Assembly: GCA_022825385.1 (NCBI GenBank)
Contig: JAJDWX010000030.1
Coordinates: 1-64,000 of the forward strand
DNA length: 64,000 nt
Direction: 5' to 3'
DNA from: Rhodothermales bacterium
GTDB taxonomy: Bacteria > Bacteroidota > Rhodothermia > Rhodothermales > VXPQ01
The notes under the pieces were generated by a model. That model ran no database searches, was not told the origin of the DNA, and saw only the letters and a program-made list of their open reading frames with translations. Both the position numbers and the translations under genes were made by a program. Below, piece after piece: positions 992 to 13,913 of this stretch (its first letter is position 1; each line of letters begins with the position of its first letter).

Positions 992-1188
992 GGCAATCAG
1001 AAAACGATTCGAGGGCGCGCGGCCAGGAAAAATGCGGAGCGGAGGGAAGATACGGAAACCCCGGGCATTAATTCAGCGTGTCTTTTAAACCAAGGCTCTG
1101 TTTTGTATGTGCATTAGGCATATATCCTGATCTCTCTGACGACCGAATCAGGGCATATCAAGCCTCGTTTCATCAAACGCTCCAGAAC

Positions 1189-6330
<5,142 letters not shown>

Positions 6331-6361
6331 GGCCTATTTCTCCCCATCCGGCGGGAACGCA

Positions 6362-6389
6362 GCGCAAAAAGGGGCTTATGCCCTTGCGC
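6362..6389. repeat. Hairpin between the restriction gene and the Uma2 remnant
   Basis: GCGCAA (6362-6367) pairs with TTGCGC (6384-6389), and GGGC (6372-6375) with GCCC (6380-6383) around a TTAT loop. It sits 32 bases after the restriction gene stop and 30 bases before the Uma2 remnant. It aligns with the hairpin at 7345-7375 before the intact Uma2 gene, with paired base changes. No T-run follows, so a simple terminator is not clear. Confidence 0.6.
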
Positions 6390-6418
6390 CCCTTTGCCTG
6401 GCATCCGGGAGGTTCCCC

Positions 6419-6538
6419 ATGCCCGCAACCAGCCTCAGGAAGACGACCGCCCGCCCCCGAATGGGCATCAAGACCCCTCGGGCTGCAACGGCAAAAAATA
6501 CGTTGCGCCCCCCGATTTTTGTTATCAAAAAGGCTTGA
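6419..6538 (+). pseudogene. Truncated 5' remnant of an Uma2-family gene
   Basis: Begins with GGGAGG (6407-6412) and an ATG, and reads MPATS, then K-T, RPRMG, PR and TA-K, matching the first 30 or so codons of the intact Uma2 gene at 7402. The upstream DNA matches too. Homology stops at the CCCCGA step near 6515; the frame then runs out to a TGA that falls inside the -35 box of promoter A. None of the nuclease motifs are kept, so it is a dead fragment unless the 39-residue peptide has a role. Confidence 0.75.
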
Positions 6539-6682
6539 CTTTTCAGCGCCGGCGCCGTATAATGCTACTGCGTTCCGGTCGCGCCTTGCCGCGCCAGAAC
6601 GCCCAATCCCCCGATACGCAGACATCGGCCTAAACGGTTGTTCGCCGCCCCCCGGCAGGGCGAACCCGTTGAAAAACGGTGC
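6504..6682 (+). repeat. Module copy A: Uma2 fragment, promoter and structured leader
   Basis: Aligns with copy B (9537-9716). Shared parts in order: an A-rich step ending CCCCGATTTTT; TTGACT, 17 bases, TATA-T; a CAGACATCGG block closed by the hairpin CCGAT (6611-6615) with ATCGG (6624-6628); and GGCAGGGCGAACCCG followed by AAAAACGGTGC. In copy A the last block can form CCGTT-GAAA-AACGG. Each copy lies 60-70 bases before a membrane coiled-coil gene. The long leader suggests control at the RNA level, which is inferred. Confidence 0.75.
6535..6563 (+). promoter_or_regulatory. Near-consensus housekeeping promoter A
   Basis: TTGACT at 6535-6540, a spacer of exactly 17 bases, and a perfect TATAAT at 6558-6563. 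Transcription would begin near 6570, leaving a leader of about 177 bases before the coiled-coil gene at 6747. The consensus is of the classic sigma-70 kind, not the -33/-7 form usual in Bacteroidota. Confidence 0.8.
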
Positions 6683-6746
6683 AGAAACGATCCTGGCGAT
6701 CTGTACGATCACAGGTGTGACAAGAACCCGAAAACCGCTGAAAGCC

Positions 6747-7169
6747 ATGTCTGAAAACTTTTACTTCGCCGTATTGCTTGCCCCGCTTGTTGCCGTATTG
6801 ATTGCAATCGTTGGCTGGTTTTATCAACGTCACCGCAACAGGAAAACGGACAGGAGAGACGACAAACGGGCTATGGAAGCACAATTCGCGGCGCTTGGAA
6901 AGAAAATCGACCACGTCAACACGAACCTGAGCAAGCGAATGGACGACGGGAACACCAGCCTGGGCCAGCGAATCGACGATGTCAACGCGAATCTGAGTAA
7001 GCGACTCGACGACACGAACGCGAAAATCGATGACGTCAACGCGAGCCTCAGCAAGCGGATCGACGAGACGAACACAAACCTCGTCACTATGCAAACGGAG
7101 CTTTCCAAGCGCATTGACGGGGTCAATACCCGTATTGACGGCCTGTACGTCTCATCAGGAAAAAAGTAG
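6747..7169 (+). CDS. Small single-pass membrane protein with heptad/hendecad coiled coil (copy 1)
   Basis: A 140-residue protein that I do not recognise as a named family. Residues 5-26 form one hydrophobic membrane segment, followed by a basic, charged stretch (RHRNRKTDRRDDKR), so the long C-terminal part should be cytoplasmic. From about residue 50 it is a regular coiled coil of repeating units such as SKRLDDTNAKI and DDVNASL, mixing 11-residue and 7-residue steps. The ATG at 6747 was chosen because it starts just before the membrane segment and lies downstream of promoter A; the open frame extends further up but without coding character. It sits between the Uma2 remnant and the intact Uma2 gene. 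A protein of the same layout is encoded at 9774-10289. A role in the defence island, for instance as a membrane scaffold or sensor, is only inferred. Confidence 0.7.
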   Translation: MSENFYFAVLLAPLVAVLIAIVGWFYQRHRNRKTDRRDDKRAMEAQFAALGKKIDHVNTNLSKRMDDGNTSLGQRIDDVNANLSKRLDDTNAKIDDVNASLSKRIDETNTNLVTMQTELSKRIDGVNTRIDGLYVSSGKK

Positions 7170-7344
7170 TCCGCGCCCGATCCGAAACCAACAATACGGA
7201 TACGGGCGCGCTCGAAAGAAAGTCCCGTGCGGCGAGCGCCGCATGAAATTTCCCGGCGGACGTACACAACGCAAGGACACGCTGGCGCAAAGCCTGTCCC
7301 GGGAACTGTACAACCGCGCATTTTCCCATACGGCAGGGACCCAA

Positions 7345-7375
7345 GGGATACAAGAGGCTAATCCCCTTGTATCCC
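7345..7375. repeat. Hairpin before the Uma2 gene
   Basis: GGGATACAAGAGG (7345-7357) pairs with CCCCTTGTATCCC (7363-7375) across a CTAAT loop with one mismatch. It ends 15 bases before the GGAGG ribosome site of the Uma2 gene. The matching place before the Uma2 remnant (6362-6389) has a hairpin with different but still paired bases. It could be a leader structure of the Uma2 gene or the 3' end of the coiled-coil transcript. Confidence 0.65.
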
Positions 7376-7401
7376 CTGGTCCGACACCCTGGAGGCTGCC
7401 C

Positions 7402-8025
7402 ATGCCCGCAACCAGCGCCAAAAAGACGCATGACCGCCCCCGAATGGGCGGCGAGGCCCCTCGGGTCATGACCGCGGAGAAATACGTTACGCTCCCCGAC
7501 CGGCAAAACGGCGTCTCCTGTGAATTGGTGCAGGACGCGCTGGTCGTACGCGATCCGGGGGTGTCCTGGACGCATTCGTCCGTACAGGGCAAATTGTACC
7601 GCTATCTCGACGAATGGATGGAAAAATTCGGACACGGCGAAGTAGGCGTAGACGTAGACTGCCTCCTCAGCGAAGCCCCGGACACCATTCGCATCCCGGA
7701 CGTAGCCGTGCTGCTCCAGCCGTTCGATAAGAAAAATGCCTTCCATGGCCGTGTTCGAGGCGCGCCAGACATTGCGATCGAAGTGCTGTCCCCCTCGAAC
7801 AGGCCGCAGGAAATGCGCGACAAAACAAGCGATTACTTCAATGCCGGAGCGCTCCGGGTGTGGATCGTAGATCCGGAAACCCGAACTATCGTCATGCACA
7901 GGCCGGATGGAACAAACACCCGATTCAGCAGTGCAGATCGTCTCGAAGACCCTGAAATACTGCCGGGCTTTGCGCTGGAGATGCGGAAGGTATTCGGAGT
8001 ATACCACGCCCGCCCCACGCTATAA
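7402..8025 (+). CDS. Uma2 family (DUF820) PD-(D/E)XK nuclease-fold protein
   Basis: A 207-residue protein of the Uma2 family, which has a restriction-endonuclease fold and is common in cyanobacteria and FCB bacteria, often in many copies. The nuclease residues are present: D100 in IRIPDVAVL, E127 in DIAIEVLSPSN and K141 in MRDKTSDYF, followed by the family motif VWIVDPE. The biological target of Uma2 proteins is unknown. The ATG at 7402 follows GGAGG at 7391-7395 with good spacing, which decides the start within a longer open frame. It lies between the first coiled-coil gene and the convergent fic gene. A truncated second copy is at 6419-6538, and a short piece of the same sequence is found again near 9537, so this locus has been duplicated and broken. 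Confidence 0.88.
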   Translation: MPATSAKKTHDRPRMGGEAPRVMTAEKYVTLPDRQNGVSCELVQDALVVRDPGVSWTHSSVQGKLYRYLDEWMEKFGHGEVGVDVDCLLSEAPDTIRIPDVAVLLQPFDKKNAFHGRVRGAPDIAIEVLSPSNRPQEMRDKTSDYFNAGALRVWIVDPETRTIVMHRPDGTNTRFSSADRLEDPEILPGFALEMRKVFGVYHARPTL

Positions 8026-8087
8026 CCCACCCTTGCCGCTTCTTGCCGGTTCCCCTGCCCCGGGGACAAATCAGACTTTGACCATAA

Positions 8088-9386
8088 TCACAACCCCGCC
8101 TGGCTTTCGGGGCTGATGGCCTCAAGGTCCTCGGGCCGCAACTTGTAGCGTATTACATTGCCCTCGTGCAGGCCGCGAAACTCCTGTCCGACATAGGCGG
8201 CGACCTGTTCGCAATCCGCGTCGGGAACGCCGTCTGCGGCGGCCATGGCTATGACGTCCTCTGGGCGGAACGCCTGCCATTCCAGTACGCAGCGGCGTAC
8301 GGCCTTGCGCACGAAATCCCGGTACGCCAGCGCCGCCTTCTCCGGGCTTTCGACTTCGGCGCGCAGCACCCGATAATTCTCGGCCGAGCTCAGATAGGCG
8401 TCGATATACGCCTCGCGCAACAAGGAAACGTTGTTCAGTTCGTAGACGCCGATTAGTCCGTCGATATAGTCCCTGTCGTCCATGGTCAGGAACGACATCG
8501 GCGCAAGATCGGCCTTTAGAAGCGGGATGTTCGAGGCAATGCGCGAGGTCCGCTTGTTGATATCGGCGAAAGCCTGCAAATAGGGAATATGAACGAGAAG
8601 AAAGAAGGATTGCTCAAACGGATCGGGGATCGCCGCTGCCTTGCCGATCAGGATTTCAAACTCTTCCTCAATCTGATATTGGTCGTCAAGCGGCCTGTAG
8701 CTCGAATGCGCGATGGCGACAGGCATGCGGCGCAGCCGTCCCCCCATGGCGGGATCGGCAAGAAGGCCGCCCGCGAGGAGGGCGTGAATATTGAACATAT
8801 CCGGCCGGCTGATATGTATATCGTCAAGATGCTCGACGACATACTGAATCGCCTCCTTGTGGTTAAGGATCATCAGCGCTTCCTTGCGGTCCTTGCCGGA
8901 TGCCTCTTCCCCGAAGCGGATGAGCCGTTCGGTCTGAAGGATATCGTAGGTGTTTCCTTCCATGCGCGACGACGCCCAGGACAAGTCCACGAGCAGCCGT
9001 TCAAGAATACGCCGCGCATAGGTCCCTGCCGGGGGCGGCGGCTCCAGGCGCCCGGCCTCGCGCAGACGCCGCCGGTCCGCCGCGGCAAGGTAGAATGTCT
9101 TTCCGGGAATATACCGGTCGAAAAAACCCTTGTCGTAGCTTGCAGGCTTGCGACGATTATAAGGCGTTTGCAGATATGCGCGCACTGCGGACGCGCCCGC
9201 CAGGCGGTAGCCGGTGGCGCGGGCGTTGCCCGATATTTCCAGCCGGCCTTCGTCGACAAGCCGCTTGAGCGCCCGCCAGACCGTCGACAAACTTACATCC
9301 GCCGCGACATGGCGGCGAATATCCTCGCGGCCGGCGCCGGGGTGGTCCGCAATGTAATCGAGTATGGCCTGGTCCGTAAGCGGCAT
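8088..9386 (-). CDS. Fic family protein with N-terminal winged-helix domain
   Basis: 432 residues from the ATG at 9386; a TTG five codons earlier is also possible. Residues 1-65 look like a winged helix-turn-helix DNA-binding domain (TDQAILDYIADHPG, then STVWRALKRLVDEGRLE). The Fic domain follows, with an inhibitory-helix motif SSRMEGN (139-145; pattern S/T-x-x-x-E-G/N) placed before the core as in self-inhibited Fic proteins. The active loop is H266 with ADINKRTSR (274-282) instead of the canonical HPFxxGNGR; this variant is known in a Fic subfamily with a HxPYLQ-F-D-NKR loop. Fic proteins usually transfer AMP to target proteins. The C-terminal third is helical with no clear domain. The promoter is surrounded by TGAAACGAT repeats, so self-repression by the winged helix is likely. 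Convergent with the Uma2 gene. Confidence 0.85.
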   Translation of the reverse strand: MPLTDQAILDYIADHPGAGREDIRRHVAADVSLSTVWRALKRLVDEGRLEISGNARATGYRLAGASAVRAYLQTPYNRRKPASYDKGFFDRYIPGKTFYLAAADRRRLREAGRLEPPPPAGTYARRILERLLVDLSWASSRMEGNTYDILQTERLIRFGEEASGKDRKEALMILNHKEAIQYVVEHLDDIHISRPDMFNIHALLAGGLLADPAMGGRLRRMPVAIAHSSYRPLDDQYQIEEEFEILIGKAAAIPDPFEQSFFLLVHIPYLQAFADINKRTSRIASNIPLLKADLAPMSFLTMDDRDYIDGLIGVYELNNVSLLREAYIDAYLSSAENYRVLRAEVESPEKAALAYRDFVRKAVRRCVLEWQAFRPEDVIAMAAADGVPDADCEQVAAYVGQEFRGLHEGNVIRYKLRPEDLEAISPESQAGL

Positions 9387-9481
9387 GAAACGATTTTCCA
9401 AGTCTGTGAAACGATTATGTCTATAAAATACAAGGATTTTACCAAATTGTCAACATATCGTTTCACGATTTTTGAAACGAT
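9386..9481. promoter_or_regulatory. Operator array: four TGAAACGAT boxes around the fic promoter
   Basis: Boxes in + orientation at 9386-9394, 9407-9415 and 9473-9481, and in reverse (ATCGTTTCA) at 9457-9465. The last two form a perfect 9-bp inverted repeat with a 7-base gap just upstream of the -35 box. The first two are direct repeats 21 bases apart, two helical turns, one near the transcription start and one at the start codon. The layout suits repression by the winged-helix Fic protein or another local regulator. Confidence 0.75.
9425..9453 (-). promoter_or_regulatory. fic promoter
   Basis: On the minus strand TTGACA (9453-9448), a 17-base spacer, and TATTTT (9430-9425). Transcription would start near 9418, about 30 bases before the ATG at 9386. 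Operator boxes lie immediately upstream of the -35 box and just downstream of the -10 box. Confidence 0.7.
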
Positions 9482-9536
9482 ATAGCCTTCGCCGACCTCC
9501 CCCCCGATTCGCCGCGAGGCCTCCCGGAACAAGACG

Positions 9537-9716
9537 ACAAAAAACAGGCTGCGCTCCCCGATTTTTATTTCCCGAGGGCTTGACTTGCGGGCGGCGAGGC
9601 CGTATATTGTTATCGTCTTTCGGGCGCCCCGGAAGCCCGGTCCTCCGATGCCAGACATCGGCTGAAATCCCCGTTCTGAACCCCCTTGGCAGGGCGAACC
9701 CGCCTAAAAACGGTGC
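9537..9716 (+). repeat. Module copy B: Uma2 fragment, promoter and structured leader
   Basis: Second copy of the module at 6504-6682. It starts with a short piece alignable to the Uma2 5' coding region (AAAAAACAGGCTGCGCTCCC), followed by promoter B and a leader. The first leader hairpin is longer here: CCGATG (9645-9650) with CATCGG (9656-9661). The GGCAGGGCGAACCCG and AAAAACGGTGC blocks are kept. The coiled-coil gene begins 58 bases after the block. Bases between the conserved pieces differ a good deal, so the duplication is not recent. Confidence 0.75.
9580..9608 (+). promoter_or_regulatory. Near-consensus promoter B for the coiled-coil/mcrBC genes
   Basis: TTGACT at 9580-9585, 17 bases, TATATT at 9603-9608. 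Transcription would begin near 9616 and run through the coiled-coil gene at 9774 and into mcrB and mcrC, since no other promoter is visible before mcrB. Confidence 0.75.
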
Positions 9717-9773
9717 GTACGACGCTATGAACGCAAAACCCCTTTAGAGGCAATCCACGAAGTCCCTGGAACC

Positions 9774-10289
9774 ATGAAAAACTGGAATTGGAAACCAATC
9801 GTTGCCGGAATCGCGTTCCTTGGCGTGCTGGCTACCTTCTACGGAACGATCCGGGCGGATATGCGCGGAATCCGGACAGACATGCGAGTAGAAATGCAGC
9901 ATGTGCGAACGGAAATGCAGGGCGTACGGGCAGAAGTGCAGGACGTACGAGGAGAGATTCACGCTTTGCGTTCGGACGTGCGAGCAGACATTAAAGACTT
10001 GCGGTCGGAAATTAACGCCTTGCGTTCGGACGTACGGACAGACATTCAAGGCTTGCGGGCGGAAATGCGCGCCTTGCATGCCGTTGAAGCGTCCCCGCCT
10101 GCCAAAGCAACAGGAGAACAAGCCGCGCCTGCATCAACCCCTGCGACTACTAATTCCGTGCCTGCGCCCCACGCCAAACCGGAATCTGCTGCCTTGTCCG
10201 CCGCCGCACGCGAAATGCCCTGCGTCCGTTCCCCGCACCGATTAGCCCGGGTGATCGCAGCGGTTACCTTGTGGTATTATCATGTTTGA
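9774..10289 (+). CDS. Small membrane-anchored coiled-coil protein (copy 2), coupled to mcrB
   Basis: 171 residues, not a family I can name. Residues 7-25 form one membrane segment (PIVAGIAFLGVLATFYG). Residues 26-100 are a coiled coil built from units such as LRSEINA (7) and LRSDVRADIKD (11), the same mixture of 7- and 11-residue steps as the protein at 6747, with different residues. At DNA level the units around 9965-10070 are near-identical tandem repeats of about 54 bases. A Pro/Ala-rich tail follows, and the last residues are hydrophobic (RVIAAVTLWYYHV). The stop codon lies 8 bases inside mcrB, so the two are probably translated together. This suggests a subunit of the McrBC system, recalling the coiled-coil-containing Type IV (CoCoNuT) systems; that link is inferred from position and shape only. 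Confidence 0.7.
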   Translation: MKNWNWKPIVAGIAFLGVLATFYGTIRADMRGIRTDMRVEMQHVRTEMQGVRAEVQDVRGEIHALRSDVRADIKDLRSEINALRSDVRTDIQGLRAEMRALHAVEASPPAKATGEQAAPASTPATTNSVPAPHAKPESAALSAAAREMPCVRSPHRLARVIAAVTLWYYHV

Positions 10290-12543
10290 CTTATCTACCC
10301 CCGACGGACTAAAAGCCGCTTGCGAAGAGGCAGAACGCACGCAAGCACAAGATTATTCCGAATGGCGCGAACAGATATACGAGCTGTTAAAATATGTTAA
10401 GGAAGCCTCATTGGAAGAACGTGAAAGCGAGGAATTTCATGAAAAAATATGGAAGGAAAATAAAATAGCAAATCTTGCGTTGCGAGAAAATGAAGATGTT
10501 AGCCTTGCTATTACTGACCCTAATGTAAGAAAGAATATTTCAAAAAAATTGATAAAAATTTTACCAAATAATCGTCACGAAAGAATTGATTTTTTGAATA
10601 AAATTAGAGATTATATAATTCATGATGTTTTTAGAAATAAAACTTCAAAGCCTTGGGCAAATACTACTCGGACACTGGCAGCGCTTTTCCCTACAGAATT
10701 CGTTGCATTAGCCGTAGATAGAGGAAGAAATAATTATGCTCGAAAACTTCTAAACAAAATGAATGTCAAACCAGATAAAATATTTATCGGGCAACATCGA
10801 CAAATTCTTGACAAAATAGAAGAGGCTTTGGGATCCATATCAGATGGCGATCTCCGTAAGTTGGCCAATCGGATGACTTTACCAAGAATGCTGCTTAATC
10901 TAATGAACGGAAATGAAGAAAAGATAGAAATGAACGATACTAAAACTTCAAAATCACACCTTGCCCCTGCAAAACCAAATGGAAAAACCTCCGAAATGAA
11001 AACCACAGACGCCCAAAACATCATTCTCTACGGTCCGCCAGGCACGGGCAAGACCTACACTATCCGACAACGGGCGATTGAATTGATTTTGGGAGAAAAA
11101 GCCCCAAAAAATCCTTCGACACAGGAACTAACGAATCTTTTTTTAGAATACCAGAAGACCGGAAACATTGAATTCGTGACTTTTCATCAATCCTATGGAT
11201 ACGAAGAGTTTATCGAAGGACTTCGTCCCATTTTAGAGGATGATAACAAGGAAATACGCTACGAATTACATGATGGAATATTCAAGCGTATGGCCATGAG
11301 GGCTGATGAAGAGCGAAATAAAGTGATCCACAAGAAAGAATTAAATTTCGAACAATTATGGCAACGGCTCATGGATACGATTCGGAATTCTCCAGATCGT
11401 GTTTACCCAGGTAATGGAAAAATTTCTTATCGTATGGGTATATCAGATAGGGATGGCATAAAACTTTATCCTAAAAACACCCCATATACTGTTTCTACCA
11501 GTGTTTCCAAGGAGAAAATGAAAGATATTTGGGAAAAAATATATATTGATGCTTCAAAGCCATCAAAATTAACTTCTAATTTGCTTCGAGATAATATTAT
11601 TGGTCATAAAAATCATATTACAGCTCCCCGATTTGTTTATGACAGACTTATTGAATTAAATAACAAAATTGAATTAAATAACAAAATTACTCCCCCCGAA
11701 GACAAACCCACAGAGTACGTCCTCGTCATCGACGAAATAAACCGGGGCAACGTGAGCAAAATTCTGGGCGAGTTGATCACGCTGCTGGAGCCGGATAAGC
11801 GGCTCGGGGCCGAGAACGAATTGAGGCTGCCCCTGGCCTATTCGCCCGAATCGCGCTTTGGCGTACCGCCCAATCTGCATATCCTCGGCACCATGAACAC
11901 GGCGGATCGCTCCATTGCGTTAATGGATGCCGCGCTACGGCGCCGCTTCACTTTCGAAGAGGTTATGCCGGACAAGGAGTGCCTCCAGAGAATGCTTAAA
12001 GAAGCGCTGGGAGACGGTTCGCCCCTTGCGCAACTGGTTGTTGACCTGTTCGAGGTCCTGAATAAACGGATCCGCTTTCTCTACGACCGCGACCACCAGA
12101 TTGGCCATGCCTACTTCCTTCGCGTGAAGAGCCTGGACGATTTGCGCTTTGTTTTCGCCAAGCGGGTGATTCCCCTCCTCCAGGAATACTTCTATGGCGA
12201 CTGGAACAAGATATGCATGGTTCTTGGCTGTCCATACAGCGACGCTGGAAAGTCCCTCTCCAGTAAAAATCAGCATCCGATCATCCATGCGGATACATTT
12301 TCGGAAACGGACACGCTCGGCTTCGATCACGACGACTACGAAGACCGGGTGGATTTCAGCATTGCGCCGGCATTCCAGAATACTGAAAAGGAAATGAATA
12401 AAGATGACCTCGTCCGCGCATTTCTCGGCGTATTGCAACTCAAGCAGGAGGATTTCGATGAACGCCTTAAGGAACTTATGGACAACGAGGCCCCGCCGGA
12501 CAAGGAGGGCGGCGACAAAGAAACAGACGAGGAGGATTCGTGA
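10282..12543 (+). CDS. mcrB: McrB-type AAA+ GTPase of a Type IV restriction system
   Basis: 753 residues. The AAA+ core has Walker A GPPGTGKT (251-258), Walker B and sensor IDEINRGN (from 483) and the McrB signature MNTADRSI (538), followed by LMDAALRRRF. McrB binds GTP, forms a hexamer and drives the McrC nuclease onto modified DNA (RNA in some relatives). The N-terminal 230 residues should read the target; I do not recognise their fold. Base composition is mosaic: roughly 10330-10960 and 11090-11690 are very AT-rich, while the Walker A segment and everything after 11695 match the GC-rich surroundings. The AT-rich insert between Walker A and Walker B also holds an in-frame 18-bp tandem duplication (11650-11685). 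The start overlaps the coiled-coil gene; the stop overlaps mcrC. Confidence 0.9.
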   Translation: MFDLSTPDGLKAACEEAERTQAQDYSEWREQIYELLKYVKEASLEERESEEFHEKIWKENKIANLALRENEDVSLAITDPNVRKNISKKLIKILPNNRHERIDFLNKIRDYIIHDVFRNKTSKPWANTTRTLAALFPTEFVALAVDRGRNNYARKLLNKMNVKPDKIFIGQHRQILDKIEEALGSISDGDLRKLANRMTLPRMLLNLMNGNEEKIEMNDTKTSKSHLAPAKPNGKTSEMKTTDAQNIILYGPPGTGKTYTIRQRAIELILGEKAPKNPSTQELTNLFLEYQKTGNIEFVTFHQSYGYEEFIEGLRPILEDDNKEIRYELHDGIFKRMAMRADEERNKVIHKKELNFEQLWQRLMDTIRNSPDRVYPGNGKISYRMGISDRDGIKLYPKNTPYTVSTSVSKEKMKDIWEKIYIDASKPSKLTSNLLRDNIIGHKNHITAPRFVYDRLIELNNKIELNNKITPPEDKPTEYVLVIDEINRGNVSKILGELITLLEPDKRLGAENELRLPLAYSPESRFGVPPNLHILGTMNTADRSIALMDAALRRRFTFEEVMPDKECLQRMLKEALGDGSPLAQLVVDLFEVLNKRIRFLYDRDHQIGHAYFLRVKSLDDLRFVFAKRVIPLLQEYFYGDWNKICMVLGCPYSDAGKSLSSKNQHPIIHADTFSETDTLGFDHDDYEDRVDFSIAPAFQNTEKEMNKDDLVRAFLGVLQLKQEDFDERLKELMDNEAPPDKEGGDKETDEEDS
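11650..11685 (+). repeat. 18-bp tandem duplication inside mcrB
   Basis: Two exact copies of ATTGAATTAAATAACAAA (11650-11667 and 11668-11685), giving IELNNK twice. The unit is a multiple of three, so copy-number change would not break the frame. It marks the end of the AT-rich insert just before Walker B. Confidence 0.95.
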
Positions 12544-13913
12544 CGCGCACGTACAAACGCATCGTCATCCGGGAACACGAGCGGATCGTTCGAAGCGATC
12601 AGGACAGCGCAGGCCCGGGCGAGTATCAACGCCTCCATTCGCGCCTGTACGATCAGTTAAAGCGCTTCGACCAGCGCGAGCGCACAGCAAACGAGCAGGT
12701 ATTCGCCTGGGGAGATAATCGCGCCCAGGCGCAGCAATGGGTTGGCGTCATCCAGGTGCCCGGCCTTCAGGTGGAAATCCTTCCCAAGGTGGATAGCCCG
12801 GAATCCAGCGAGGACAGCCAGGGAGAACACGAGGCGCGCCATAACCTCCTCTATATGCTTGCTATCGCAGGCGACGTACCCGTAAGAGACCGCGACGTAG
12901 CGCATCTCGCAAACCGCAAGGCCCCGCTCTCCGAACTGCTCATCGCTATCTTCGCGTACCGACTTCGCGAGGAGCTGCTGCTCGGCGCCGAACATGCCTA
13001 CCTGCAACGGGAAGAAAACCTCCGACGATTCAAGGGCAAGTTAATAATCCCTGCGCAAATACTTCATAATTCGGCGCGCCGCGAACGTTTCTTTTGCCGG
13101 TTTGACGAATTTTCCAAAGACACGGCAATGAATCGCATCTTCCGATTCGCGTGCGCCACGCTGCTTAACTGGACGCATACCCCCTCCACCCAGGACAAAC
13201 TCCGGCATTGCCTGCTATTGCTGGACGGCGTTGCGTATGTACCGATCCATGACGAGCTGTTCGAGCAGATACCCATTACGCGACAAAACGAGCGCTTCGC
13301 GGACGCGCTCCATTTTTGCCGGCTCATCCTCCAGGCCCGTTCGCCGACGACGAATACAGGAAAACAGCGCAGTTTTTCGCTGTTGTTCGATATGAACGAG
13401 GTTTTTGAAGCCTTCGTGGCCGCCTTTATGAGAAAATGGGTGATGCCTTTGCCTGGTTTTCCCGAACATCGGCTCTATCCCCAGGCCAAACGACGGCAAC
13501 GCCATCTCATAACCCGCAACGGGAAAGGCGTACTTTCGCTTCGTCCCGACCTGCTCATAGAGGCCCCGGAAGACGACCGAAGGCTTGTTCTGGACACCAA
13601 ATGGAAAAGGCTCTCTGGAAGCGGCGGACGCGGCGGCGCAGGAGCCGCCGATATTTACCAACTCTATGCCTATACCCAGCGATATGGCTGCAAGCGCAGC
13701 ATGCTTCTCTACCCCCATGTATCGGGAGCCGAGGAACGCGATTTCGAGATTATTGATCGCTCCAACGAGCCTGCCGGGCAACAGATTCTCGTACGGTATG
13801 TCGATCTTCATCGCAACCTGCGCGCAAACCGGGAATCCCTTGCCAGGGAACTGAAGCAGATCGTAACAGAAGGCCTCGCCGCCAAATCGCAACCTGTTTC
13901 GTTGTCCGCATAG
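12540..13913 (+). CDS. mcrC: McrC nuclease subunit
   Basis: 457 residues, the usual length for McrC. The N-terminal part is the McrB-contacting beta-rich region; the C-terminal part is a PD-(D/E)XK nuclease with RPD at 335-337, LDTK at 351-354 and the family glutamine in IYQLYAYTQ. It cuts DNA when activated by the McrB GTPase ring. The GTG start at 12540 overlaps the mcrB stop (GTGA) and has a strong GAGGAGG ribosome site at 12529-12535, so the pair is translationally coupled. Composition is uniformly GC-rich, unlike the first half of mcrB. It is the last gene of the defence island; the next gene is convergent, 28 bases on. Confidence 0.92.
   Translation: MTRTYKRIVIREHERIVRSDQDSAGPGEYQRLHSRLYDQLKRFDQRERTANEQVFAWGDNRAQAQQWVGVIQVPGLQVEILPKVDSPESSEDSQGEHEARHNLLYMLAIAGDVPVRDRDVAHLANRKAPLSELLIAIFAYRLREELLLGAEHAYLQREENLRRFKGKLIIPAQILHNSARRERFFCRFDEFSKDTAMNRIFRFACATLLNWTHTPSTQDKLRHCLLLLDGVAYVPIHDELFEQIPITRQNERFADALHFCRLILQARSPTTNTGKQRSFSLLFDMNEVFEAFVAAFMRKWVMPLPGFPEHRLYPQAKRRQRHLITRNGKGVLSLRPDLLIEAPEDDRRLVLDTKWKRLSGSGGRGGAGAADIYQLYAYTQRYGCKRSMLLYPHVSGAEERDFEIIDRSNEPAGQQILVRYVDLHRNLRANRESLARELKQIVTEGLAAKSQPVSLSA

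Follow-up and report, generated by a model that had tools for sequence, protein, structure and literature searches.

Two control regions in a Rhodothermales bacterium, each followed by a gene for a small membrane coiled-coil protein, raise the question of whether they are a plain local duplication, a structured regulatory RNA, or members of a more widely copied unit of promoter, leader, and gene. The window, which is the whole 64,000-nucleotide stretch of DNA that was analyzed, is contig C35 of the 3.0-Mb genome G000. The nearest relative with the same locus is G001, the MAG 'Rhodothermales bacterium isolate jk18xAbins.31' (JAJECT010000028). The genus sample consisted of six genomes (G000, G001, and four other congeners), and wider samples covered the order (114 genomes) and the phylum (394 genomes).

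The initial annotation had described two regions that share their elements in the same order, and this description was borne out. Region A (6504-6682) and region B (9550-9716) were 70% identical (E 2.6e-12 in the 3.0-Mb genome), and both contained a promoter of the form TTGACT-17-TATA(A/T)T, followed by a hairpin with CCGAT/ATCGG arms and then by an identical block. Promoter spacing was 17 nt in both copies, and the hairpin of B was longer by one pair, as had been noted. The elements of the two control regions are as follows:

6389..6515, + strand: remnant of a Uma2 5' end, immediately before promoter A, from MAFFT alignment with the Uma2 gene at 7402
6535..6563, + strand: promoter A, TTGACT-17-TATAAT, 11/12 consensus matches, with an A/T-rich stretch upstream
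6570..6602, + strand: P1 hairpin of leader A, beginning where transcription is predicted to start; fold z -3.5; identical in the congener
6611..6628, + strand: P2 of leader A, a CCGAT/ATCGG hairpin found only in copies A and B
6654..6682, + strand: conserved block GGCAGGGCGAACCCGTTGAAAAACGGTGC of leader A, with one substitution in the congener
9580..9608, + strand: promoter B, TTGACT-17-TATATT, 10/12 consensus matches
9617..9635, + strand: counterpart of P1 in leader B, CTTTCGGG-CGC-CCCGGAAG, from folding; register shifted relative to A and fold z only -0.7
9645..9661, + strand: P2 of leader B, a CCGATG/CATCGG hairpin with one more pair than its counterpart in A
9688..9716, + strand: conserved block GGCAGGGCGAACCCGCCTAAAAACGGTGC of leader B

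Both promoters have hexamers close to consensus and a spacing within the 16 to 18 nt of sigma-70 promoters, and both ranked in the top three sigma-70-like sites of 6300-10320. The pattern TTGACTTN14-17TATAATG had two exact matches in the genome, one at promoter A and the other on C22 beside another coiled-coil gene. The combination GGCAGGGCGAACCCG-N3-AAAAACGGTGC was exact in A (6654-6682) and B (9688-9716) and was found nowhere else in the genome at up to 3 mismatches; the strict A/B block likewise had just two occurrences in the genome, those of A and B. The CCGAT hairpin accompanies an insertion that was found only in A and B, and other family members are without it. A Uma2-derived step had been proposed for both copies. 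This held for A, where the start region of the congener Uma2 gene matched both the remnant at 6389-6515 and the start of the Uma2 gene in the window, and the remnant appears to be the trace of a rearrangement. For B, likeness to A in this part was limited to a short segment immediately upstream of the promoter. Gene order in G001 was the same (leader A, ccA, Uma2, Fic in reverse orientation, leader B, ccB, mcrB, and mcrC), and CAGACATCGGC and GGCAGGGCGAACCCG-N3-AAAAACGG were invariant blocks, apart from single changes, in all four A/B leaders of the two species.

Behind each copy lies a gene for a small protein with one membrane segment and a 7/11 coil, which agrees with the initial annotation. 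TRF resolved the repeats of ccA and ccB into units of 33 bp and 54 bp, equivalent to 11 and 18 (7+11) residues. The genes at the locus are as follows:

6747..7169, + strand: ccA, 140 aa, N-terminal membrane helix and 7/11 coil with TRF repeats
7402..8025, + strand: Uma2 family gene downstream of ccA (Pfam PF05685, E 2.6e-28)
8088..9401, - strand: Fic/DOC protein with a winged helix (Pfam PF02661 and PF13412), between the modules and outside the unit
9774..10289, + strand: ccB, 171 aa, N-terminal membrane helix and 7/11 coil, with an 8-nt overlap with mcrB
10282..13913, + strand: mcrB (10282-12543; Pfam AAA_5, E 4e-13) and mcrC (12540-13913; McrBC, E 2e-77)

The orthologue of ccA in the congener was 77% identical over residues 1-124 and had a longer coil. 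The mcrB and mcrC genes form an operon behind ccB. The N-terminal domain of McrB was wholly different between the congeners (window 10282-12543 versus L011 10173-11930), with ccB, the AAA domain, and McrC kept, and the difference is probably a specificity-domain swap. The gene upstream of module A (1078-6330) encodes a single-chain restriction-modification enzyme of 1750 aa (PADLOC type IIG, E 4e-85); at this place the congener has instead a gene (L011 3302-5314) that was named from its sequence as a RecQ-like helicase. An inverted repeat, TATCGTTTCA...TGAAACGATA, at approximately 9457-9484 lies in the interval that separates the Fic/winged-helix gene from promoter B and could serve the Fic regulator as an operator.

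The extent of the family was assessed with two models. R1, built from the whole A/B leader, was too specific to serve as a family probe: over the 114 genomes of the order it returned only A and B, apart from three weak hits. The exact block pattern, searched in 84,980 genomes, was found in the congener only, in addition to five chance matches, of which at least two fall within other ORFs, RecA-like in one case. Searches of the genus with the ccA and ccB proteins returned many other genes for proteins with a membrane helix and a coil, and diverged versions of the promoter and leader were found upstream of such genes at C2 of G000 (two tandem genes) and at C21 and C12 of G001, and then also at C36 of G000. 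R2, built from the promoter and first hairpin of nine sequences, detected 11 copies in G000 and 10 in G001 at E≤0.01, so that the covariance-model search set by the initial annotation was positive; hits examined for their downstream gene reached E 0.13. In the four other congeners R2 found nothing better than E 0.2, and the single hit in the rest of the 114-genome order and the four hits in the 394-genome phylum sample were at chance level. These weak hits (E 0.002-0.009 for one genome) were discarded, their number being that expected by chance, and no copies were found in viral, plasmid, and phage collections. The promoter spacer and the blocks of the second half of the leader align across family members, and it is the promoter, rather than a folded RNA, that varies least across the family. 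A and B are two members, and the closest pair, of a dispersed, lineage-limited family of about ten copies in each of the two species.

Sixteen hits had not been used to build R2, and manual inspection placed a membrane coil gene (one helix, 7/11 coil) ∼60 to 260 nt downstream of 13 of them, which are not 13 independent events because the hits are partly paralogues. An automated criterion also accepted 13 of the 16, compared to 66 of 1,500 control points in the window (4.4%), and with stricter coil thresholds the values were 10/16 versus 2.6% and 9/16 versus 1.1%. The automated and manual sets differed by one swap, C4 being accepted and C28, truncated by a contig end, being rejected. The exceptions in the manual set were C15 (L127 2580-4761), in which a family-like promoter precedes a 72-aa coil without a membrane helix and, further downstream, a RecF/OLD-like ATPase; C4, which precedes a membrane protein with no clear coil; and C22:338, which has a broken frame near a contig end. 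The shared leader precedes proteins with the helix first (ccA, ccB, C22, C11, C24/C28, and C12) as well as proteins with the helix last (C2a/C42, C48, C46, C44, C21b, C17, and C11). The genes behind the dispersed copies differ in sequence and topology, yet belong to one structural class. With 13 of 16 downstream genes of this type and the helix at either end, the leader-like sequence therefore recurs with the gene class, and the proposed unit of promoter, leader, and membrane coil gene is supported by further copies, most of them before such genes.

The CCDC90-like/DUF1640 family (PF07798, cut-off 33.5 bits) also comprises short proteins that combine one membrane helix with a coil. The C49 gene (L058) of G000 was a clear member (39.7 bits), ccB (23.5 bits) and C21b (19.9 bits) were below the cut-off, and ccA had no match. 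Most copies precede single genes between unrelated neighbors. Three precede defense-type genes, namely, Uma2 at A, McrBC at B, and an ATPase (PADLOC PDC-S01) at C12/C36, and a defense role is not general because most of the other copies are solitary. The arrangement at B resembles CoCoNuT type IV restriction systems, in which a separate coiled-coil gene (CnuA) is likewise associated with mcrB and mcrC. It differs from them in that ccB has a membrane helix and most of the family has no McrBC neighbor. The signature that defines CoCoNuT systems is an NxD motif of their McrB-like GTPase (PMC11090510). CoCoNuT membership was rejected because the McrB of the window carries NTAD (MNTADRS), that is, NxxD rather than NxD.

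Approximately half of the membrane coil genes seen in G000 have other upstream sequences, and one that adjoins a Septu PtuA/PtuB pair has an upstream region unrelated to the leader. A separate membrane coil gene, MKNREWKD... (L055 156-2736; L061; L057), has its own conserved upstream region and is present in three copies near one contig end of G001 and in two copies in G000. One of its copies in each genome adjoins the same ATPase/HNH pair, identified in G000 by PADLOC as Septu PtuA/PtuB, and HTH genes are located near several copies. Lipoproteins with Ala/Glu-rich repeats of 21-bp units (L125 3133-4062 and 1082-1702) flank one family member. G000 seems to be rich in repeat-coil proteins.

The initial annotation had further proposed a selected unit with leader-level control. 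The first hairpin was paired in 83% of cells over nine sequences compared to 25 to 42% when slid, and in four of its pairs both sides had changed. Its fold z was about -3 or lower in A, C2a, C2b, C42, and C48 and -2.2 in C21b; it was weak or absent in B, C36, C12, C22, C11, C28, and C24. A second hairpin, GCCC-G(C/T)(C/T)CGG ... CCGG(A/G)(C/T)-GGGC, was paired in 65 of 70 cells over seven members, with one double change, and the arm-swap control was not significant. Between the two species, hairpin 1 of A was identical and hairpin 1 of B differed at 43% of ungapped positions; the flanking Fic gene differed by 7% and the conserved block by 3 to 7%. No fitting intrinsic terminator or attenuator was found in the leader. 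The search for paired base changes yielded few, which leaves leader-level control unproven, and the missing first hairpin in several members and the divergence of the B hairpin also speak against that part of the proposal. The statement that the leader matches no known class stood, in that no Rfam family reached gathering score over 6300-10300 and the sub-threshold hits were chance hits.

The coil genes change rapidly in length and presence. Syntenic copies encode 318 aa at C46 and 75 aa at C44, with repeats of 33, 66, and 99 bp. Behind the C36/C12 leader, G001 has a coil gene (L065 2817-3306) that is missing from G000 (L130 1638-1648), where 469 bp of the G001 sequence are gone at an 11-bp direct repeat and the leader is kept. 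C2b and C21a each occur in one congener only. In the congener, identity between the A and B copies is patchwork, which suggests gene conversion.

The best explanation, to which we assign a probability of roughly 0.6, is a lineage-specific family of promoters and 5' untranslated regions that was copied together with membrane coil genes, drifted, and provides strong expression. Each member would begin with a housekeeping-sigma promoter that is close to consensus and has kept its spacer, continue with a 5' untranslated leader, and end in a gene whose short membrane product combines a single helix with a long 7/11 coil. The unit may have spread along with these genes through tandem and dispersed duplications and probably also gene conversion, followed by drift. 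Transcription from the near-consensus promoters would be strong and largely constitutive, and the stable hairpin at +1, where present, may slow 5'-end-dependent decay of the mRNA, consistent with the finding that 5' hairpins stabilize mRNA and impede RppH (PMC3997798). The predicted product is a membrane-anchored, self-assembling (oligomeric) coil whose length would change through slippage of 33-bp repeats. At copy B the coil protein would be cotranslated with McrBC, and at copy A the coil gene would precede Uma2.

A different possibility, which we regard as rather unlikely, is that the promoter is a nonautonomous element that spreads by itself, so that its position before coil genes reflects tolerant spots or chance cotravel. 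Short repeats that act as promoters are described as 'mobile promoters' (cited in PMC8049555). The same promoter and leader before proteins of opposite membrane topology would fit such an element, as would the loss of the 469 bp at C36, which indicates that leader and gene can part; however, nearly all copies precede one gene class, terminal inverted repeats or target duplications were not established, and the phage and plasmid collections held no copies. A plain recent segmental duplication within a defense island, with no wider family, would account for the 3-kb distance between A and B, their shared upstream sequence, the confinement of the strict pattern to these two sites, and the patchwork identity in the congener, but it is contradicted by approximately nine further divergent copies per genome with the same type of gene behind them and is very unlikely.

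The leader could instead act as a cis-acting regulatory RNA, similar to a riboswitch or attenuator, that controls a regulon of coil genes. The invariant blocks in all four A/B leaders and the pairing of both hairpins point in this direction; the scarcity of two-sided pair changes, the nonsignificant arm-swap control, the lack of a terminator, the end of the conserved blocks short of the start codon, the members without the structure, and the absence of an Rfam match make it improbable. We also consider it improbable that the genes constitute a dedicated regulon of variable-length membrane coils, expressed jointly and controlled jointly through the leader RNA, with some serving as membrane anchors or sensors in defense operons (McrBC, Uma2, and the PDC-S01 ATPase). 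Finally, the conserved block is open in one frame in the four A/B copies, and several of its differences are synonymous (GGC/GGT, GGT/GGG, and GCA/GCG), as would be expected if it were a coding remnant, GRANPxKNGA, of a leader peptide or a former N terminus. This origin is highly improbable, and the leader peptide was rejected, since there is no common start codon, the stops differ, and the homologous leaders C21b, C17, and C46 break the frame.

For the preferred reading of a family copied together with its genes, promoter duplication and mobile promoters provide the closest general idea. Duplicated or mobile promoter regions of prokaryotes are similarly short promoter-bearing sequences with many dispersed copies in one lineage; the family described here differs in its long leader and in the position of its copies almost only before one gene class, and its autonomous movement is putative. 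The ompA and papA leaders are 5' stabilizing stem-loops. A stable hairpin at the predicted first nucleotide is likewise found in A and about five other members, but several members are without it and its stabilizing role is predicted.

These results describe a bacterial control region whose copies have increased in number along with a single structural class of protein, one in which coil length changes rapidly. Genes of the membrane coil class are hard to follow because their repeats defeat homology search, and the combination of promoter, leader, and gene provides a handle on them. Coregulation of membrane coiled coils, and the copying of promoter and gene as one unit, thereby become testable.
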